Shown here: piece by piece, positions 4,565 to 20,147 of the stretch
Layout of the letters: every line of letters starts with the position of its first letter
Numbering within the stretch: the stretch's first letter is position 1
Origin: Gallionella sp.
GTDB lineage: Bacteria; Pseudomonadota; Gammaproteobacteria; Burkholderiales; Gallionellaceae
Assembly: GCA_025350705.1 (NCBI GenBank)
Contig: JANXXH010000153.1
Span: forward strand, 1-48,008
Reading direction: 5' to 3'
Length of the DNA stretch: 48,008 bases
Translations under genes and position numbers: made by a program
Notes under the pieces: model-generated
Told to the model about the DNA's origin: nothing
Database searches by the model: none
Seen by the model: only the letters and a program-made list of their open reading frames with translations

Positions 4565-7333
4565 TTGAAACTCACTTTATTCAAGACTAAACATACCTCC
4601 ACGTTACGGCAGACATTCAGCCGCCGGTTAGTACTGTTGTTAGCTTTATTCTCTGTAGTGATGAGCGTCTTGATCGTGCTGGCTTACCAGCAACAAACCG
4701 ACCGGTTAAATCGGGCAGCGATGACCGACGACCTAAACCATTTATTGCCGCGTCTCCAGAGTCAACAACGGATCTGGGGCGATGGCGCAGATCAATTACT
4801 CGATGTCATCGATTGGACCGGCTTGCTCGACTTGAAAGAAAATGAGCGCAACCAGAAGTTGAATGCTTTTTTGACTGCCCAGGCACAAAGCATGGCATTT
4901 GAAGGTATCGTTATTGTCGATGTGGATAGAAGAAAGATATTGTTCAATTTTTGGAACAACACCGACAAGCCCGATTTACTGAATGCCGTGAAAGATGATC
5001 AACCTTACTGGTATGACGATCAGCATAACACCCTGTACACAAAAATAAGGAAATCCCCCCCCACCAAAGGCGAGAATATATATATTTTCTTTCTCAAGGC
5101 ATGGGATAGCGCCATGCTGCATCGCGTGAGCTTTCCTGACTCGCCCCTCTTTCTTACGCTGGGCTCCAAAGCGTTGCTGAGCTCCACCGGCAACCTGGGC
5201 ATGGAATCGATGCATCCATTTTCCAGTGGAGGATATTCCGAATTCACAATAAAAGGAAAAAAATATCAGGAAGGCAGCATCAGCTTGACAGATGTATTAA
5301 TTTCAGAAGGCCAGAAAGCACCATTAACAGTGACGGAACGTGCTCCGTTAGAAAATATCCTGCCGGTTCAATTTGTGCTGGGTGCTTCTGTCGGTGTCAC
5401 GCTGATGTTTGGCCTACTGCTGTTCATGGTTTTTGGCCGCTGGTTGAGACAGCTCGGAACAAGGCTGGATGCATTGGCCAGTGCAGCCGTACGCTTCAAA
5501 AATGAGCAGCGCGGCGAGGTTAGCAATCAAATCCGCGATCTGCTGCAAGTTGCCAAAACTGCCTCAGAAGATCAGGTCACCGTGGTAGCGCAAGCGTTGT
5601 CTTCGTTGATGACGAGTTCCGCTGCACGTAATGAAGAGCAGCGCGCTTACTTGCAAACGTTGGAATTGCTGCAGGATGCGGTTATCGAACTGGCCCCGGA
5701 TGGGCGCTTGCTGCGTGCCACTGATGCCTGGAAAATCATGACCGGCATAGACAACCTATCCTCCTGCACCATCATCAACTGTGTACATCCTGAAGACAGC
5801 AATGAATTGCTGAAACATCTTGGCACCCTGAACGATAACCAGAAGAATCAATTCAACATCCGGTTCCGGATAATCCACCAGCATAATATTGACAGGCATT
5901 TCTGGGTAGAGGGACGCTTTGCCACAGTGATCCTTAACAACAAAATCGTAAGCATCCGTGGCGTGGTGCGCGACATCACCACCACCTACCGCCAGGAACG
6001 CCAGATCAACCACATGGCTTTGCATGACTCGCTGACAGACTTGCCCAATCGTGTGCTGCTGGAAGACCGTTTAGAAATGGCAATCACCCGGGCCGGACGT
6101 ACTGGCCAGCATGTGGCTTTGGGTTTCATCGATCTCGATCACTTCAAGCAGGTGAACGATAACTTCGGCCACAAGACCGGGGATCACATGCTCAAGCAAG
6201 TCGCGCAAAGACTGCAAACGGCTTTGCGCAGCACCGATACTTTATCGCGTTGGGGCGGCGATGAATTTGTGGTGCTGTGCCCTGAATTGACTTGTATGGA
6301 GGACGCCAAAGATATCACGCAAAAATTGGCTTTAATGGCACGCGACAACATCACGATTGATAACACGAATTTCCCGTTTACCTTTAGCGCAGGTTTCGCG
6401 GTGTATCCGGACGATGCGGAAAACGGCGAAATGTTGTTGGCCCAAGCGGACCGCGCGATGTTCTACGCCAAGGCACAAGGTCGGAACAACATCCAGTTCT
6501 TCAACGTCATCGCCGGCAAGACAACCAACCGGCAGTCGTTCCATATCCAAAGTCGGTTGATGCAGGCGGTACACGGCGATGAAATCATGTGCTGGCTACA
6601 ACCGATACTGTCGGCTAAAACCGGACAGGTGGTCGGGGTCGAAGCATTGGCCCGCTGGCATGATCCTGAACAAGGCTGGGTACCCCCATCGGTATTCGTC
6701 CCGATGGCTGAAAGCCTGGGGTTGATCGACAAGCTCGGGCAAACAGTTTGGCAACAAGCATTACATGCCCTGACTTTGTTGCCAAGCCATTATCGTTTAT
6801 CGGTTAATCTTTCCAAACGACAACTTTTTTCCAACATCATCGTCCAGCAACTCTGCGATGACGTAGCGCGCGTCAACATCGAACCCGGCCGCATCATGCT
6901 GGAGATCACTGAAAGTATCGCGCTTTCTGATGTGGCCTATGCGCGCGAGCGCATTGTCGAGTTGGATACCAAGGGTTTTGGTATTTCCATTGATGATTTC
7001 GGCGTGGGCTATTCATCACTGTCCCAATTGCATGAGATTCCCGCCGATGAACTCAAGCTGGACAAGTCTTTCGTCAAGCGCATCCATGAGAAGAGTGGCT
7101 TCACCATGGCCGCGGCAATCGTCTCCATCGCCCAGTCGCTGAACCTGAAATGCGTCGCAGAAGGGGTAGAAGACGCACGCACCGCTGTTCTGCTTGGTTC
7201 CATGGGAGTAGAAATGCTGCAAGGTTATTATTTCGCCAAGCCCATGAACATTGACGACTATCTGGCTTGGATGTCGTCACCTGCCCACGAACAAACCAAG
7301 CATAAAATGCTGGAAGTCGATAAACATGTCTAA
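4565..7333 (+). CDS. Membrane sensor (CHASE4-like/PAS) GGDEF-EAL protein
   Basis: N-terminal TM plus periplasmic domain, PAS-like segment, intact GGDEF (RWGGDEFVVL) and EAL (GVEALARW). Confidence 0.92.
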   Translation: MKLTLFKTKHTSTLRQTFSRRLVLLLALFSVVMSVLIVLAYQQQTDRLNRAAMTDDLNHLLPRLQSQQRIWGDGADQLLDVIDWTGLLDLKENERNQKLNAFLTAQAQSMAFEGIVIVDVDRRKILFNFWNNTDKPDLLNAVKDDQPYWYDDQHNTLYTKIRKSPPTKGENIYIFFLKAWDSAMLHRVSFPDSPLFLTLGSKALLSSTGNLGMESMHPFSSGGYSEFTIKGKKYQEGSISLTDVLISEGQKAPLTVTERAPLENILPVQFVLGASVGVTLMFGLLLFMVFGRWLRQLGTRLDALASAAVRFKNEQRGEVSNQIRDLLQVAKTASEDQVTVVAQALSSLMTSSAARNEEQRAYLQTLELLQDAVIELAPDGRLLRATDAWKIMTGIDNLSSCTIINCVHPEDSNELLKHLGTLNDNQKNQFNIRFRIIHQHNIDRHFWVEGRFATVILNNKIVSIRGVVRDITTTYRQERQINHMALHDSLTDLPNRVLLEDRLEMAITRAGRTGQHVALGFIDLDHFKQVNDNFGHKTGDHMLKQVAQRLQTALRSTDTLSRWGGDEFVVLCPELTCMEDAKDITQKLALMARDNITIDNTNFPFTFSAGFAVYPDDAENGEMLLAQADRAMFYAKAQGRNNIQFFNVIAGKTTNRQSFHIQSRLMQAVHGDEIMCWLQPILSAKTGQVVGVEALARWHDPEQGWVPPSVFVPMAESLGLIDKLGQTVWQQALHALTLLPSHYRLSVNLSKRQLFSNIIVQQLCDDVARVNIEPGRIMLEITESIALSDVAYARERIVELDTKGFGISIDDFGVGYSSLSQLHEIPADELKLDKSFVKRIHEKSGFTMAAAIVSIAQSLNLKCVAEGVEDARTAVLLGSMGVEMLQGYYFAKPMNIDDYLAWMSSPAHEQTKHKMLEVDKHV

Positions 7334-7563: not shown

Positions 7564-9612
7564 ATGTTTAGATTACTGCGTTATTTTTCTATCGCGAGCC
7601 TGATCTCAATGGTGTTGGTGGCAATCGCCCTCGGCACACTTCATCAGTTATTTGAAAAAAGCCGTTTGCTGAGATTTGGCGAAAGCCAAAACATTACCCT
7701 TATGCAGGCTTTTTCAAGCAGCATTTGGCCACAGTTTCGCAGCTTCGCCGAAACGGCAAAATCACTTGACGCAGACTCCCTGCGTCGTCATCCCGACATC
7801 GCCGAATTAGGCCATACCCTGCATGATGCAGTGCGCAATACCCCAACGGTCAGAGTGCAAATCTACCAACTCGACGGACGCACGCTGTTCTCAACTGATA
7901 CAACGCAGATCGGTACAAGCGATAGCAGCGATGCCGGGTTTCTCTCGGCGAGCCAAGGGATTGTGCTAAGCGAAATCACCCACCACGACAACTTCAGCGC
8001 CTTCGACGGGGAGCTCGTGAATCGCGATGTATTATCCAGCTCCATCCCGCTACGCAGCGGTGCGGACGCGCCGATCGAAGGTGTGATGACGGTCTATACC
8101 GACATCACTGACCTGTTGGCAAGTGACGAAAGGCAACAACACCTTGTCACTTTGAGCGTGGTCGCAGTACTGACCGCACTCTACGGCATCCTTTTCCTCA
8201 TCGCCAGGCACGCCGACAGCGTTATCAGGAGGCAATACGAGCAACAACGCCGTATCGAGCAGAGTCTCCGGCACGTGACCACCCACGACACGTTGACCAA
8301 TTTACCAAACCGCTTGCTGCTACTGGACCGGATCACGCAATCGCTGGCTTCAGCGGAACGCCACAGCAATCTGCTTGCCGTGGCTTTTATCGATCTCGAC
8401 AGTTTCCAGAATATCAATAATTCCCTGGGGCATGACATCGGCGACAAGGTGTTGCAAACCATGGCGCAACGTCTGTCACGTTGTCTGCGCGAAAGCGACA
8501 CCGCCGCTCGTTACGGTAGCGATGAATTCGTCGTGAGTTTGTCCGACATCCACTCCAACGTGGATCTGTTCCAGATCGCCAAAAAGATGCTCGGAGCCAT
8601 CTCTGCACCCATTGAAGAAAATGGACGCGAGCTTCACCTCACTGCCAGCCTCGGCATCGCCATTTATCCTGAACATGGAAAAGATGCAGAAACGCTGATA
8701 CGAAAAGCTGACATGGCGATGCATAGCGCCAAGCGCCTCGGTCGCAACAGGCACCAGATGTTCGTCGAACACATGGACGAGGAGGTGCAACAGCAGGTGC
8801 AAATGGATGACGAAATGTGGCGCGCCCTCGGCAATAACGAATTCACGCTCTATTACCAGCCCATCGTAGACCTGAAGTCGGGAATGATCGTCGGGGCCGA
8901 AGCACTGCTGCGCTGGCCCAATCCTCATGGACCCTGGCTGTCACCGGCAGAATTTATCCCCATGAGTGAGCAATGCGGACTCATCGTGCCACTCAGCGAA
9001 TGGATACTCAGCGAAGCTTGCGCGCAGTTGCAAACATGGCGTGAAAACGGGCTGGGGATGGATAATTTCATGATGTCGGTCAACTTGTCGCGGCGCCATT
9101 TCGTGACGGCGGGCCTGGCCCAAATGATCGCCGGCGTAACCGAACAGGCAGAGATCGACCCGAGGAATTTGCACATCGAAATATCGGATGGACTGCTGAC
9201 CGAGATGAACGAATCCATTCTCTCCAATTTCGAAGCACTTAAGCGCATCGGCATAAAATTCTCTCTGGATAATTTCGGCACCGGCTATTCGAGTCTCGGA
9301 TATTTGAGGAGCTTCCCGATTGACATGCTCAAGATCAATAGCTCGTTCATTCAGGATCTGCCAGACGATGCCGACCATGTGGCAATCGTATCTACGATCA
9401 TCGCGTTGGCGAATAGCCTTAACCTGTCGGTGGTTGCGAAAGGGGTCGAGACAGATGCGCAACTCGCATCCTTGCAGCAGCTCGGCTGCCACCAGGCACA
9501 GGGATTTTTGTTCAGCCGCCCATTGCCTGCCGACGAATTTTTAGCGCTTGTAATGGAACAGCGGGACATGCGCATCACCCAATCGTTGATTCCACTCCAA
9601 CCTCCGCAGTAG
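7564..9612 (+). CDS. Membrane GGDEF-EAL protein with variant GGDEF motif (GSDEF)
   Basis: Two TM segments, RYGSDEFVVSL, EALLRW, DNFGTGYSSLGYL. Confidence 0.92.
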   Translation: MFRLLRYFSIASLISMVLVAIALGTLHQLFEKSRLLRFGESQNITLMQAFSSSIWPQFRSFAETAKSLDADSLRRHPDIAELGHTLHDAVRNTPTVRVQIYQLDGRTLFSTDTTQIGTSDSSDAGFLSASQGIVLSEITHHDNFSAFDGELVNRDVLSSSIPLRSGADAPIEGVMTVYTDITDLLASDERQQHLVTLSVVAVLTALYGILFLIARHADSVIRRQYEQQRRIEQSLRHVTTHDTLTNLPNRLLLLDRITQSLASAERHSNLLAVAFIDLDSFQNINNSLGHDIGDKVLQTMAQRLSRCLRESDTAARYGSDEFVVSLSDIHSNVDLFQIAKKMLGAISAPIEENGRELHLTASLGIAIYPEHGKDAETLIRKADMAMHSAKRLGRNRHQMFVEHMDEEVQQQVQMDDEMWRALGNNEFTLYYQPIVDLKSGMIVGAEALLRWPNPHGPWLSPAEFIPMSEQCGLIVPLSEWILSEACAQLQTWRENGLGMDNFMMSVNLSRRHFVTAGLAQMIAGVTEQAEIDPRNLHIEISDGLLTEMNESILSNFEALKRIGIKFSLDNFGTGYSSLGYLRSFPIDMLKINSSFIQDLPDDADHVAIVSTIIALANSLNLSVVAKGVETDAQLASLQQLGCHQAQGFLFSRPLPADEFLALVMEQRDMRITQSLIPLQPPQ

Positions 9613-13912: not shown

Positions 13913-15316
<1,404 letters not shown>

Positions 15317-15332
15317 CCGCTCACCCAATACA

Positions 15333-15359
15333 AACAAGCCCGCAATCGCGGGCTTGTTT
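15333..15359. terminator. Bidirectional intrinsic terminator between convergent purB and FecR-domain gene
   Basis: ACAAGCCCGC-AATC-GCGGGCTTGT with T-rich flanks on both strands. Confidence 0.8.
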
Positions 15360-15380
15360 ATAATATTGACCGATAGCACA

Positions 15381-16220
15381 TCAGAACACCAATTGTGGTC
15401 CAGCTCCCCCACCAGTCTTGCCTTTAATAGGTTCCTGAATCTGGTTTTTCGGCGCTGCATTTCCCTGTGTGGCATCCTGCCCCTGAATAACGCTATCCAC
15501 AACCGTACTGCCGCGTACCTCGCCTTTACCTCCTTTGGCTTGTGGCAGCGGTGCAGGTACTACAGTAAAGATATTAAGATTGATCGGTTGCAGCTGCGGC
15601 ATTTGATCCATCCCGCCGACAAAACCCATCTGGTTAGGCAACACGTTAACAGTGCCTTTATCAGTAGTCATGATGGTCTCGCCGACATTCACCTTGTTGT
15701 AAGTACCGGCTGGCACGGATGCTGCCAATTCGCTGCCCGCGACAACCACGAAGATTTCGTGGTCAGTACCGCGTATGCCGATAGTTGAATTGATCGTTGC
15801 AATACGATAATTGCTCTTGTTCTTCTGCCCGATCAATCCGGTGATGGCACGGATGCCGCCCTTTAACAATGAAAAAAAGCTCTTTTCGCTTCCGTCTTCC
15901 TCACCGCTGAATACAAAGCTGTCGAACTTGAGCTGTGATTCCGGGCGTATGACTATGAAACCACCGTCCCGCATCTTGATTTGAACGGTAGCATCCTTTG
16001 CAGTAGTTACAGTATCGCTTTCATGGATCACATCACCCTTTTGCAGGGCATGTGTTTGTCCGGCAGCATTGGTTGCCTGAACATTCCCACTCACAAATTG
16101 AACATTTCCGGCGACACCCGCGTAAACAGCCTGACTCAACACCATCAGAAAAACCACCAGAAAGATATTCATAAATATTGTCATACATTTTGCGGTATTC
16201 ATGATTAGCACCTCACTCAA
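15381..16220 (-). CDS. Exported FecR-domain protein
   Basis: Signal peptide; FecR-like core GDVIHESDTVTTAKDATVQIKMRDGGFIVIRPESQLKFDSF ... NSTIGIRGTDHEIFVV. Confidence 0.85.
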   Translation of the reverse strand: MSEVLIMNTAKCMTIFMNIFLVVFLMVLSQAVYAGVAGNVQFVSGNVQATNAAGQTHALQKGDVIHESDTVTTAKDATVQIKMRDGGFIVIRPESQLKFDSFVFSGEEDGSEKSFFSLLKGGIRAITGLIGQKNKSNYRIATINSTIGIRGTDHEIFVVVAGSELAASVPAGTYNKVNVGETIMTTDKGTVNVLPNQMGFVGGMDQMPQLQPINLNIFTVVPAPLPQAKGGKGEVRGSTVVDSVIQGQDATQGNAAPKNQIQEPIKGKTGGGAGPQLVF

Positions 16221-16226
16221 GTTAAA

Positions 16227-17702
16227 TTACTTAAAATCATGGCGAATGGTCAATGAAGCATCCACCCTGTCATAGCTATAAATAATGATATTGGATATAT
16301 TCTTTGCGTAGCTCAACTGTGGACGCAATGTCCACAGCTTGCTCCAACGCCAATTCGCTCCAACCACTAAGTCATATAGACGATCACTGCGTTGACGCAA
16401 AAAGTACGGATTAACATTGCTGTAATCGCCGTTTTGCTCACCGGCGTTAAAAAACAGAATCGTTTTGTCGCCGAAAGCTGCCTGACCACTCACACGCAAT
16501 CCGCTGAAACGTTTAGCTCCATCTGCTCGTCCGCCATTGGGAGTGGCCTGTGTAATGATCGTAGAAACATCTTTTTCCGTACCCGAATACAAGCTGCCGA
16601 ACAGCGTCGATTTGCCCTCTGCCAGCACATGGAACCAGCCGCCGCCAACCACCTGCTGGTCGTAATCATTCACCTGCATAACCGCATCTACAAAGCGATA
16701 TTGCGCAGACTGACCAAATATCTTCAATTGATTGCTCGGGCTGAACACATGGCTCCACTCCGCATTAAGACCGGTTGTGTCGCTATTGTGTGCGTTACCC
16801 AGATTGTACTGCCCACCCAATACGCCGAAGCGCCATGAATTCGCTTTCCCTCCGAACATCACTCCGACTCGCGCATCAAGACTGAGTGAGTCAAAACTTT
16901 TCTGCGTGTTGTTGCCACGTTGCCGCAGATCTGACCCAGCATACAAGCCCCATCTGGAGTTCAGCCTGTATGTAACTTCCCCGCCTGCAGCCACCCCATA
17001 ATAATTGTCTGATGTTTTTACGTTAGTGGGATCGAGCGTGACACTTCCAGGTACCGGAGCATCAACGAATATCTGTGATTGGCTGGTGGAGTTATTGACG
17101 TTGTTATCACGCCCGACCGTTCCCGCGACATATCCGGTGATGCGCGTGTTCTTCCCCGCATCCCGCATTGCGATCTCATCCAGATATTTTTCAATGTTGG
17201 CACGCGCCGACTCGGAAGGATTTTGTTTCAAGGCCGATGCAAATTCAGTCCTGGCACGCGGCAGATCGCCCAGTTGGTAATAGGCACGCGCCATGTCCAA
17301 TCGGGCAGCAGCAGAATCAGGGTTGACTGTCAGAACCCGCTCGAAGGCAAGCGTCGCCTTGTCAGGCTTACCACTATCCAGTGCAGCAATGCCTATCAGA
17401 TAATCAAAGTGCTCTTCACCGGCATGCTCGAACTCAAGCGGCTCAAGCAAGGTATAGGCATCGGCTGGTCTGCCGCTCTTGATCAAAGCATCGGCATCGC
17501 GTAGCAACTTGTCGTAAGCCCCGCCAGTATTCTGGTTCTGGGTTGTTGGCTCGACACGCTGAGGCAGTTTTTGCGAGGCTTCTTCTGCATACGCCTCGCT
17601 AGTTGCTGACATCAATCCAAAGAGCATCGAAGTTACCATTATCCCAACCCAACCTTTCTTGTAAAGATTGCGGCTAATCGTGGCATTCCTGACCATCATC
17701 AT
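16227..17702 (-). CDS. Exported TPR protein with C-terminal outer-membrane beta-barrel
   Basis: TPR units (DSGKPDKATLAFERVLTVNPDSAAARLDMARAYYQLGD) then aromatic/glycine-rich barrel strands. Start at ATG ~17702 (GGAG-CTGAAA-ATG) preferred over ORF-track 17897. Confidence 0.8.
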   Translation of the reverse strand: MMMVRNATISRNLYKKGWVGIMVTSMLFGLMSATSEAYAEEASQKLPQRVEPTTQNQNTGGAYDKLLRDADALIKSGRPADAYTLLEPLEFEHAGEEHFDYLIGIAALDSGKPDKATLAFERVLTVNPDSAAARLDMARAYYQLGDLPRARTEFASALKQNPSESARANIEKYLDEIAMRDAGKNTRITGYVAGTVGRDNNVNNSTSQSQIFVDAPVPGSVTLDPTNVKTSDNYYGVAAGGEVTYRLNSRWGLYAGSDLRQRGNNTQKSFDSLSLDARVGVMFGGKANSWRFGVLGGQYNLGNAHNSDTTGLNAEWSHVFSPSNQLKIFGQSAQYRFVDAVMQVNDYDQQVVGGGWFHVLAEGKSTLFGSLYSGTEKDVSTIITQATPNGGRADGAKRFSGLRVSGQAAFGDKTILFFNAGEQNGDYSNVNPYFLRQRSDRLYDLVVGANWRWSKLWTLRPQLSYAKNISNIIIYSYDRVDASLTIRHDFK

Positions 17703-19203
17703 TTTCAGCTCCATGAGAATGCCGGGTAGCGTGCTTGTTTTTGCCGGAATGGTCAAGAGTATTAAGTAGATGGTTGTCTTTGTCCTCGTCATAGCTTTCT
17801 TCATCGATGCATCCTGTAGAAACTGCAGTAGACCACGACAGTTTACTAGCCACTGGATATGCATACGAAACCGTATTCCACGAAATACCATAGTCATAAA
17901 CGAGTCCGCTATAGGGCACGGAGCCTAATAGAGAATGTGCGCCAGGAGCAACCGGGATTGTCCCTACCGAATATATGCTGGTGCCGCCTATCGGCGTGAA
18001 CAGCGCAGAGTTTACTACCACATTGTCAAGCTTCAAGTTTGCTAATGCACTTGTTTCGGTGACGACATTCATAAAAGCTCCTGAGGTTCCGGCAAGGCCA
18101 TGAACTCCGAAGGTCGCATCTGTCATCCCCATTTCGGCAGGAATAACCAAAACCATGCTCGGGTCTCCTCTGTGTGCCGCATCATCCGTATAACTGTGCA
18201 TGAATTGAGCCACAAGTACAGGATTGTTGGAAACGAATTCACCGGCTTCAGACATAACGACATCCACGAATTGACCGGCATTCAATGTCCCGCTGATCAG
18301 TCCGGTGGTCGGCATCGTAGTAACAGTGGTGCCGTCCTGGGATGCCATCACACGCACTGTGTAATTCGCACGGCCACTGAACAGCGATGTATGAAAAGTC
18401 TTGCCCCAGATAGACACGTCAGTAAGTTGCTCGACGAGATAGTCGCAGAAATCCGTGCCAGATGGCACATCGGCACAACGATGACCGCCAAATACCGCAA
18501 TGGGTTTGTCGGCTGTCACATGCGAGCCTGTCATGTCGGCATTAGCCCGATTTGCCAACTGGTAGGTTTCTCCACCGTTCAGCAAAACCGTAAACACAGC
18601 TCCTGCCGCTTTGGTCGCACCGGCGGCATTGGGGGTAATGGTGACAGTCGTGGCGTTTTGGGTAGCCACTACAGCGAATTCCGAACCATCGTATCTGCTG
18701 CTAGCGTAAGACATTATGTAGTAATTTGTTCCAAGGCTGGGGGTCGGCAAGGCCAGATAACCATCAGCGGAATACATGTTTTCAGATACCACATGCACAG
18801 AAACCGGCGATAACGCCGTCACGTGGATACCCTTGGCTTCGATAGTCTCGTTCGACATCAACACCACGGCAGGATCGAGCGTGATCACGGTTTCAGCCCC
18901 TGCCGCAACAGAAAATGGTGTGGTCGCACCGTTAAATATCACATCACCCGTAGTCGCAGTTGCCGCAGCCACAATCAACTTGTTGCTAACTGACGGACTA
19001 ACGCAAAAAGCGGGTTCGCTGACACAACGATGGTCGGGCAGCGTTAAATAGAAATCTGTCCCGACTGATGTAATGACGGGAGCGGGTGCTGGGGCAGGTG
19101 CGGAGGTCGATGCCGAAGTTTCATCGCCACTATCGCACGCGGTCAATAACAACGACGTCAGGAGCAGACCGCCATAAATTATTCTCGCATTATCTGAACG
19201 CAT
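17674..19203 (-). CDS. Lipoprotein with IgGFc-binding-protein-N-terminal-like domain
   Basis: Lipobox LLTAC; FYLTLPD..., VHVVSENMYSADGYLALPTPSLGTNYYIMSYASSR, VFGGHRCADVPSGTDFCDYLVEQL resemble the IgGFc-binding N-terminal family. ATG 19203 has GAGGA 7 nt upstream. Confidence 0.75.
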   Translation of the reverse strand: MRSDNARIIYGGLLLTSLLLTACDSGDETSASTSAPAPAPAPVITSVGTDFYLTLPDHRCVSEPAFCVSPSVSNKLIVAAATATTGDVIFNGATTPFSVAAGAETVITLDPAVVLMSNETIEAKGIHVTALSPVSVHVVSENMYSADGYLALPTPSLGTNYYIMSYASSRYDGSEFAVVATQNATTVTITPNAAGATKAAGAVFTVLLNGGETYQLANRANADMTGSHVTADKPIAVFGGHRCADVPSGTDFCDYLVEQLTDVSIWGKTFHTSLFSGRANYTVRVMASQDGTTVTTMPTTGLISGTLNAGQFVDVVMSEAGEFVSNNPVLVAQFMHSYTDDAAHRGDPSMVLVIPAEMGMTDATFGVHGLAGTSGAFMNVVTETSALANLKLDNVVVNSALFTPIGGTSIYSVGTIPVAPGAHSLLGSVPYSGLVYDYGISWNTVSYAYPVASKLSWSTAVSTGCIDEESYDEDKDNHLLNTLDHSGKNKHATRHSHGAENDDGQECHD

Positions 19204-19299
19204 TCCAATATTCCTCAAGCCTCATTTTCAATGGCATCAAGGGAGAAAATGGTTATGCACAACTCATGCAAGGCAGTAATGCATACGGACGAACATCCG

Positions 19300-19380
19300 T
19301 ATCGCAGTCCCGCTACCATAGTTTCCCTTAGGCCGGTGACTTTGCGCCCTTATCTTTCGATAAGTTTGCCAAGTGAGCGG
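19300..19380 (-). ncRNA. Cyclic di-GMP-I (GEMM-I) riboswitch aptamer
   Basis: Minus strand: CACTTGGCAAACTTATCGAAAGATAAGGGCGCAAAGTCACCGGCCTAAGGGAAACTATGGTAGCGGGACTGCG. Contains GGCAAAC, CGAAAG tetraloop hairpin, CGCAAAG, CCGGCCTAA and GGTAGCGGG blocks of GEMM-I in order. Confidence 0.88.
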
Positions 19381-19410
19381 ATAGTAGCGGATGACCTTAA
19401 TATTAGTCAA
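19381..19410 (-). promoter_or_regulatory. Sigma70-like promoter for the riboswitch-led operon
   Basis: TTGACT - 18 nt - TACTAT on the minus strand, immediately upstream of the aptamer. Confidence 0.65.
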
Positions 19411-19472
19411 AACCTAACCGACGAGTGGTCTGATTTTCGGATGAACGGAGAAGTGAGTTTTCGTCTTAAAGA

Positions 19473-20147
19473 CTAGATCAATCCTTTTTCCGCGAATGAC
19501 AGAGTTTTCCCCATCGCCACCACGAAGTGATCCAGCACACGCACATCCACCAAACTCAACGCCTGCTTGAGCGCATCGGTTAACAGTTGATCCGACTGAC
19601 TGGGTTCGGCGACACCGGAGGGATGGTTATGCGCAAGGATAACGGCAGCGGCGTTATGCGCCAGCGCGCGCTTGACTACTTCGCGCGGATATACGCTGGT
19701 TTGACTGAGCGTACCCTGGAACAACTCTTCCGAGGCGATCACGCGATGTTGAGTATCCAGAAACAGCACCAGAAAAACCTCCTGCTGCCGTCCGCCGAGC
19801 AGGAGCTGCAAATAATCGCGCACCGTGCGCGGCGAATTCAGCGCATCGCCGCGTTGCAATTCCTCTTTAAGCGCACGCCGCGACATTTCCAGCACGGCTT
19901 GCAGTTGCACAAACTTCGCCTGCCCCATACCTTTTGTTTCGCAGAAATCAGATTCACTGGCAGCGACAAGCTGAGTGAGATTGCCAAAGCAGGTAAGTAA
20001 CTCGCGCGCCAGATCCACCGCGCTTTTGCCAGTTACGCCGGTGCGCAGGAAGATCGCCAGCAACTCAGCATCGGAAAGCGATGTCGCGCCGCGCGTTAGC
20101 AACTTCTCTCTGGGGCGCTCACCTTCTGGCCAGTCTGTGATTGCCAT
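19473..20147 (-). CDS. radC: RadC/JAB-domain protein
   Basis: [37 protein letters not shown] ... [16 protein letters not shown]. Confidence 0.96.

Follow-up and report, generated by a model that had tools for sequence, protein, structure and literature searches.

A c-di-GMP-I (GEMM-I) aptamer fused to its own promoter was found on the minus strand of a Gallionella contig, directly upstream of a putative surface-lipoprotein secretion operon. The window, i.e., the whole stretch of DNA that was analyzed, comprised 48,008 nucleotides; all features below lie on its minus strand unless stated otherwise. Slightly better than even credence is given to the reading that this aptamer is a riboswitch without the closing helix P1, located at the very 5′ end of a LytTR-activated mRNA, whose ligand lowers expression after initiation. 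In the mechanism proposed here, a LytTR regulator acting at tandem sites that closely precede the –35 element would activate a sigma70 promoter, and the mRNA for the lipoprotein, a Slam-like exporter, and a FecR-like protein would begin at the tetranucleotide ACUU. c-di-GMP would fix helices P2 and P3 with their tetraloop contact and occupy the C at 19304. In ligand-free RNA, this C would re-pair into the base of a downstream hairpin (P4) and ACUU could pair with the AAGU in the pocket junction. Expression would most likely be lowered by the folded aptamer because a CU-rich element would then be available to mask the Shine-Dalgarno (SD) sequence.

A preliminary description had read 19410-19203 (minus strand) as a promoter, a GEMM-I aptamer, and a leader, a reading that agreed with the sequence, and had called for a search with RF01051. 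This search returned a single, full-length match in the window (19380-19300, model positions 1-87, 69.2 bits, gathering cut-off 35 bits, E = 1.3e-11 for the whole window), which was also the only match in the whole genome (2.69 Mb, 87% complete); the aptamer call was thereby upheld. The first 6 nt of the match lie upstream of the predicted transcription start. The Rfam match and a class alignment placed P2, with a GAAA tetraloop, at 19349-19364 and P3, with an 11-nt tetraloop receptor (CCUAAG...UAUGG), at 19306-19341; the columns of the tetraloop (CGAAAG) and of the receptor were nearly invariant in 40-42 loci. Equivalents of the Vc2 pocket residues G20, A47, and C92 were identified in the Rfam alignment as G 19370, A 19343, and C 19304 and were invariant in the class alignment. 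The aptamer at 19380-19300 is predicted to bind c-di-GMP and to control expression. GGDEF domains numbered 28 in the genome, including two inside the window (6017-6490 and 8281-8751, plus strand, in open frames of 924 and 690 aa). RF01051 matches were found in 106 of 158 Gallionellaceae genomes.

About 130 family loci were compared after alignment on the pocket G, the equivalent of Vc2 G20. ACUU before GGCAAA was common to 52 of these (A 94%, C 98%, U 100%, U 98%), and by sequence the window aptamer belongs to this ACUU class, which appears to be promoter-fused, equipped with P4, and specific to Gallionellaceae. Occurrence of the class elsewhere was considered and rejected, as only standard aptamers were present among those matches read that belonged to other families in the order. 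The standard aptamers of Gallionellaceae (approximately 70 loci surveyed), which share Rfam family and bacterial family with the ACUU class, differ in having AAAA or AAAG before the pocket and often a UCUG/CAGA P1, in lacking a phased promoter and a P4 hairpin, and in their target genes.

The promoter proposed earlier (TTGACT-N18-TACTAT) was recovered with its –35 hexamer at 19410-19405, a spacer of 18 nt, and its –10 hexamer at 19386-19381. Since a single-sequence scan yielded promoter-like sites only at chance level (5 in 15200-19700 vs. 5.8 in shuffles), the case for this promoter rests on comparison. Its significance, and with it the earlier claim that the aptamer has a promoter of its own, derives from conservation at a fixed phase across the 52 related loci. 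In register with the pocket G, the –10 element corresponds to T-16, A-15, and T-11, and TAnnnT occurred at this phase in 75% of the ACUU class, whereas the best TAnnnT position in the standard class reached 9% at most. Similarly, a –35-like hexamer was present in 87% of the ACUU class and in 7% of the standard class. Because 6 nt separate the –10 element from ACUU, at whose A strong conservation sets in, +1 was placed at 19374. The sigma70 transcript is thus predicted to begin with pppACUUGGCAAAC, with ACUU (+1 to +4, 19371-19374) complementary to AAGU at 19342-19339 and the start lying four nt before the ligand-pocket G.

A start at ACUU would leave no 5′ strand for P1. Consistent with absence of this helix, complementarity of the 5′ and 3′ flanks equaled that of shuffles in the ACUU class (–4.50 vs. 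–4.46 kcal/mol), while it exceeded shuffles in the standard class (–4.30 vs. –3.35 kcal/mol). Two longer transcripts, with a P1 formed by AUCCG/CGGAU or by a 10-bp CCGCUACUAU/AUGGUAGCGG pairing, were rejected: both pairings were possible in the window only, were not conserved in orthologues, and required a start upstream of the –10 element. P1 is not required for membership in GEMM-I, because it lies outside the Rfam consensus pairs and is missing in the Clostridioides difficile riboswitch Cd1.

The hairpin reported earlier downstream of the aptamer was retrieved as P4 (core 19283-19302), extended by a UGC/GCA pairing between 19306-19304 and 19282-19280 that leaves G 19303 bulged out. Immediately 3′ of the ligand-pairing C, a segment of 25 nt folded at –6 kcal/mol or below in 94% of the ACUU class vs. 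7% of standard aptamers. P4 covaried across the class, with changes on both sides in 8 of 10 pairs (40 sequences); over the whole structure, 94.7% of cells paired, compared with 88.8% after shuffling and 39.4% at most after sliding. The ligand-pairing C at 19304 has G 19282 as its alternative partner. Pairing of this C with the P4 base is possible in 29 of 40 loci, and the computed probability of this re-pairing in the window leader was 0.66. In Cd1 and pilM, re-pairing of the ligand C by a downstream G, which ends ligand binding, is the published switching step (PMC9262584).

The downstream genes matched the surface-protein operon described previously. Pfam and orthologues identified the first gene product (17674-19203) as a lipoprotein with lipobox LTAC and an IgGFc_binding domain (PF17517, 237 bits). 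It is followed by an outer-membrane protein with TPR and SlipAM domains (16227-17702; the start at 17702 is the probable one, the longest open frame starting at 17897) and, by domain match, a FecR-domain protein (15381-16220). The second protein had a C-terminal SlipAM domain (PF04575) at 35.3 bits (cut-off 22) and TPR_19 at 54.1 bits. With both domains above the Pfam cut-off and a lipoprotein as partner, this Slam-like protein is a probable exporter of the lipoprotein to the cell surface. Position +2 of the mature lipoprotein (C-D-S, region 19203-19120) is Asp, and Gly in several orthologues; Asp at this position keeps E. coli lipoproteins in the inner membrane. The gene order, with radC preceding, was the same in relatives, and orthologous loci fell in Gallionella/Nitrosomonadales records. 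True orthologues of the lipoprotein (58-100% identity) occurred in 13 of 158 family genomes, in each case with an aptamer just upstream (13/13); two relatives with 37-38% identity lacked an upstream aptamer.

Upstream of the promoter, two LytTR/AlgR-like half-sites were identified. Half-site 1, CCGTTCATC (19440-19448), opens with CCGTT and matches the AlgR consensus CCGTTCGTC in 8 of 9 positions (PMC4064291); half-site 2, CCACTCGTC (19420-19428), matches in 7 of 9, lies 20 bp from half-site 1 (start to start), and is located 9 bp upstream of the –35 hexamer. Such 9-bp direct repeats, 20-21 bp apart, were located at an almost constant position (start –78, sd 0.7) in 34 class promoters outside the hemerythrin-type set, including that of the window. 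They scored 13.06 of 18 against tandem CCGTTCGTC (shuffles, 9.32 ± 1.05); at hemerythrin-type and standard loci, the score was no better than in shuffles. CCGTTCGTC is the AlgR core (PMC4064291), and LytTR sites are repeats of 9-11 nt, 11-13 nt apart (PMC4847170), often 10 bp upstream of the –35 element (PMC6193735). The two repeats, their spacing, and their likeness to CCGTTCGTC conform to a LytTR/AlgR operator, and the genome encodes one LytTR response regulator, located at L171:1492-2250 and adjoining a PF06580 histidine kinase. An AlgR-type LytTR regulator acting from the tandem sites is the probable activator of the sigma70 promoter. A genome-wide regulon based on the tandem repeat was rejected for the present genome, in which one exact site was found and the other three had 3 mismatches, near chance. 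In genome G093, tandem AlgR-like repeats occurred at seven places away from the listed aptamers, which suggests a wider LytTR regulon.

In agreement with the preliminary description, no U-tract follows the P4 hairpin, and no intrinsic terminator was found between aptamer and gene. The probable SD sequence (GAGG, 19213-19216) precedes the lipoprotein ATG at 19203. A CU-rich candidate anti-SD element, AACCAUUUUCUCCCUUGA (element X, 19237-19254), is also complementary to apical P3, which is suggestive only. Averaged over the 13 orthologues, computed SD accessibility was 0.28 in free RNA and fell to 0.16 when the aptamer was constrained to fold, vs. 0.38 and 0.35 with shuffled linkers; for the window alone it was nearly the same in free and bound ensembles. 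Pairing of X with apical P3 in the window reached –14.8 kcal/mol, vs. –8.5 kcal/mol in shuffles (p = 0.01). As a class-wide rule, this antisense pairing was rejected as weak (p < 0.05 in 13% of loci vs. 0-2% in controls); a covarying anti-SD helix was likewise rejected, its pairing being no higher than in shuffles (72.2% vs. 70.9%). Translational repression via the anti-SD element is the most likely level and direction of control, but only with moderate confidence, because the X-P3 pairing is weak class-wide and covariation is lacking for the anti-SD helix.

Further arguments against the favored reading are that loss of P1 abolishes binding by Vc2 (PMC9262584) and that it would be unusual for high c-di-GMP to turn an adhesin-like gene OFF. 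c-di-GMP commonly increases surface and biofilm proteins, which supports the opposite reading. In that case, ligand binding would open the P4 base, and the released strand would free the SD sequence or prevent premature (Rho-dependent) termination in the leader. Competition of the P4 extension and the ligand for one C fits such ON switching, and control by a non-intrinsic mechanism is conceivable since the leader has no intrinsic terminator. However, constraining the aptamer to its folded state did not clearly raise SD accessibility in any of the lipoprotein-orthologue leaders (by 0.07 at most, in locus L058), and ON control is considered rather doubtful. Control might instead act on the mRNA 5′ end itself, with ACUU-AAGU pairing shielding the end without ligand and ligand exposing the RNA to decay by RppH/RNase E, or the reverse. 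The predicted start exactly at ACUU and its complementarity to AAGU are in line with this model, as are the retention of the pairing through G-U in 3 of 4 ACUU variants (52 loci) and the effect of replacing ACUU by AAAA, which raised the mean computed formation of the P3 base from 0.39 to 0.51. The computed probability of the pairing (P0) was nevertheless low (mean only 0.23, and 0.00 in a short window RNA), so that 5′-end control appears unlikely. Pairing of ACUU with AAGU is hypothetical; covariation cannot test it because the pairing is nearly invariant, and conservation of ACUU could instead reflect initiation or the pocket sequence.

A more elaborate version of the favored reading, which we put forward tentatively, combines several of these elements: with +1 at the aptamer core, P1 would be replaced by ACUU, paired with AAGU, and by the hairpin that re-pairs the ligand C. 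c-di-GMP would then gate translation, the 5′ end, or both in a Gallionellaceae regulon of surface lipoprotein/Slam, hemerythrin, and other genes, as a layer of control beneath LytTR activation. Sensing of 3′,3′-cGAMP instead of c-di-GMP was also weighed, as GEMM-I includes cGAMP sensors (PMC9262584) and no assay of any ACUU-class member was found in the literature searched. Yet all 52 class members have G, and not the A of GEMM-Ib, at the selectivity position (Vc2 G20); while position 20 is a selectivity factor and no hard filter (PMC9262584), cGAMP sensing is very unlikely. Most improbable of all is a decayed, non-responsive aptamer retained only as a 5′ structural stabilizer of the mRNA. Absence of P1, which Vc2 needs for binding (PMC9262584), would fit such decay, but pocket, tetraloop receptor, and P2 covariation were kept in 40 loci and Cd1 binds c-di-GMP without P1 (PMC9262584).

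The survey also revealed other groups of GEMM-I loci in the family. A second ACUU-class target group consisted of bacteriohemerythrin-like genes, whose promoters lacked LytTR-like repeats (L084, L065, L082, L087, L059, L061, L063, L069, L071, L078, L086). A third GEMM-I variant (L031, L123, L125, L127, L132) had the junction CGCAAU/CGCAAC and the 3′ side CAGCCGGGCUGCC; its targets include FliL-like genes. The commonest standard target in the family was an unnamed conserved membrane protein of approximately 450 aa with an N-terminus like MQLNIKSGELWLLIIVSLMALGANLP (L003, L004, L008, L017, L020, and about 15 more). Locus L072 carried a tandem pair of GEMM-I aptamer cores, approximately 235 nt apart, upstream of a PilZ-like gene.

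c-di-GMP-I riboswitches as a kind, and P1-less GEMM-I in the form of Cd1, are already known. In the papers searched, which covered few subscription papers, we found neither a promoter-fused ACUU class with P4 nor its restriction to Gallionellaceae or its association with LytTR-like sites and a Slam-like operon; likewise, c-di-GMP riboswitch control of a Slam and a description of c-di-GMP riboswitches of iron-oxidizing bacteria were not found there. The locus would link c-di-GMP, and probably a LytTR system as well, with an operon of iron-oxidizing bacteria that is a candidate for surface-lipoprotein secretion. As in known Slam exporters (SlipAM, PF04575), a TPR protein with a C-terminal SlipAM barrel adjoins a lipoprotein gene, although its domain score is weak (35.3 bits) and its candidate client is an IgGFc_binding protein. 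The upstream region resembles AlgZR/LytTR two-component control in its 9-bp direct repeats like CCGTTCGTC, with a gap of 11-12 bp and approximately 10 bp upstream of the –35 element, and in the kinase-LytTR gene pair of the genome (PMC4064291, PMC4847170, PMC6193735); it differs in that the Gallionellaceae regulator is a putative AlgR counterpart with predicted binding sites. With Vc2 of Vibrio cholerae, a translational OFF switch (PMC9262584), the aptamer shares P2/P3, the GAAA-receptor contact, the pocket residues, and, probably, translational control. Binding by Vc2, however, depends on P1, of which the Gallionellaceae aptamer is predicted to lack the 5′ strand. The leader also resembles Cd1 (PMC9262584), likewise a GEMM-I reported without P1 and followed by a further hairpin, in which a downstream G re-pairs the ligand C in the absence of ligand. 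Cd1 ends in an intrinsic terminator, whereas the Gallionellaceae leader has a candidate SD-covering element, a promoter that abuts the aptamer, and a P4 that directly touches the ligand C. That P1 is essential in Vc2 but missing in Cd1 is an open contradiction (PMC9262584), and the at least 52 natural aptamers with no room for P1 offer a direct test of ligand binding and switching by P1-less GEMM-I.
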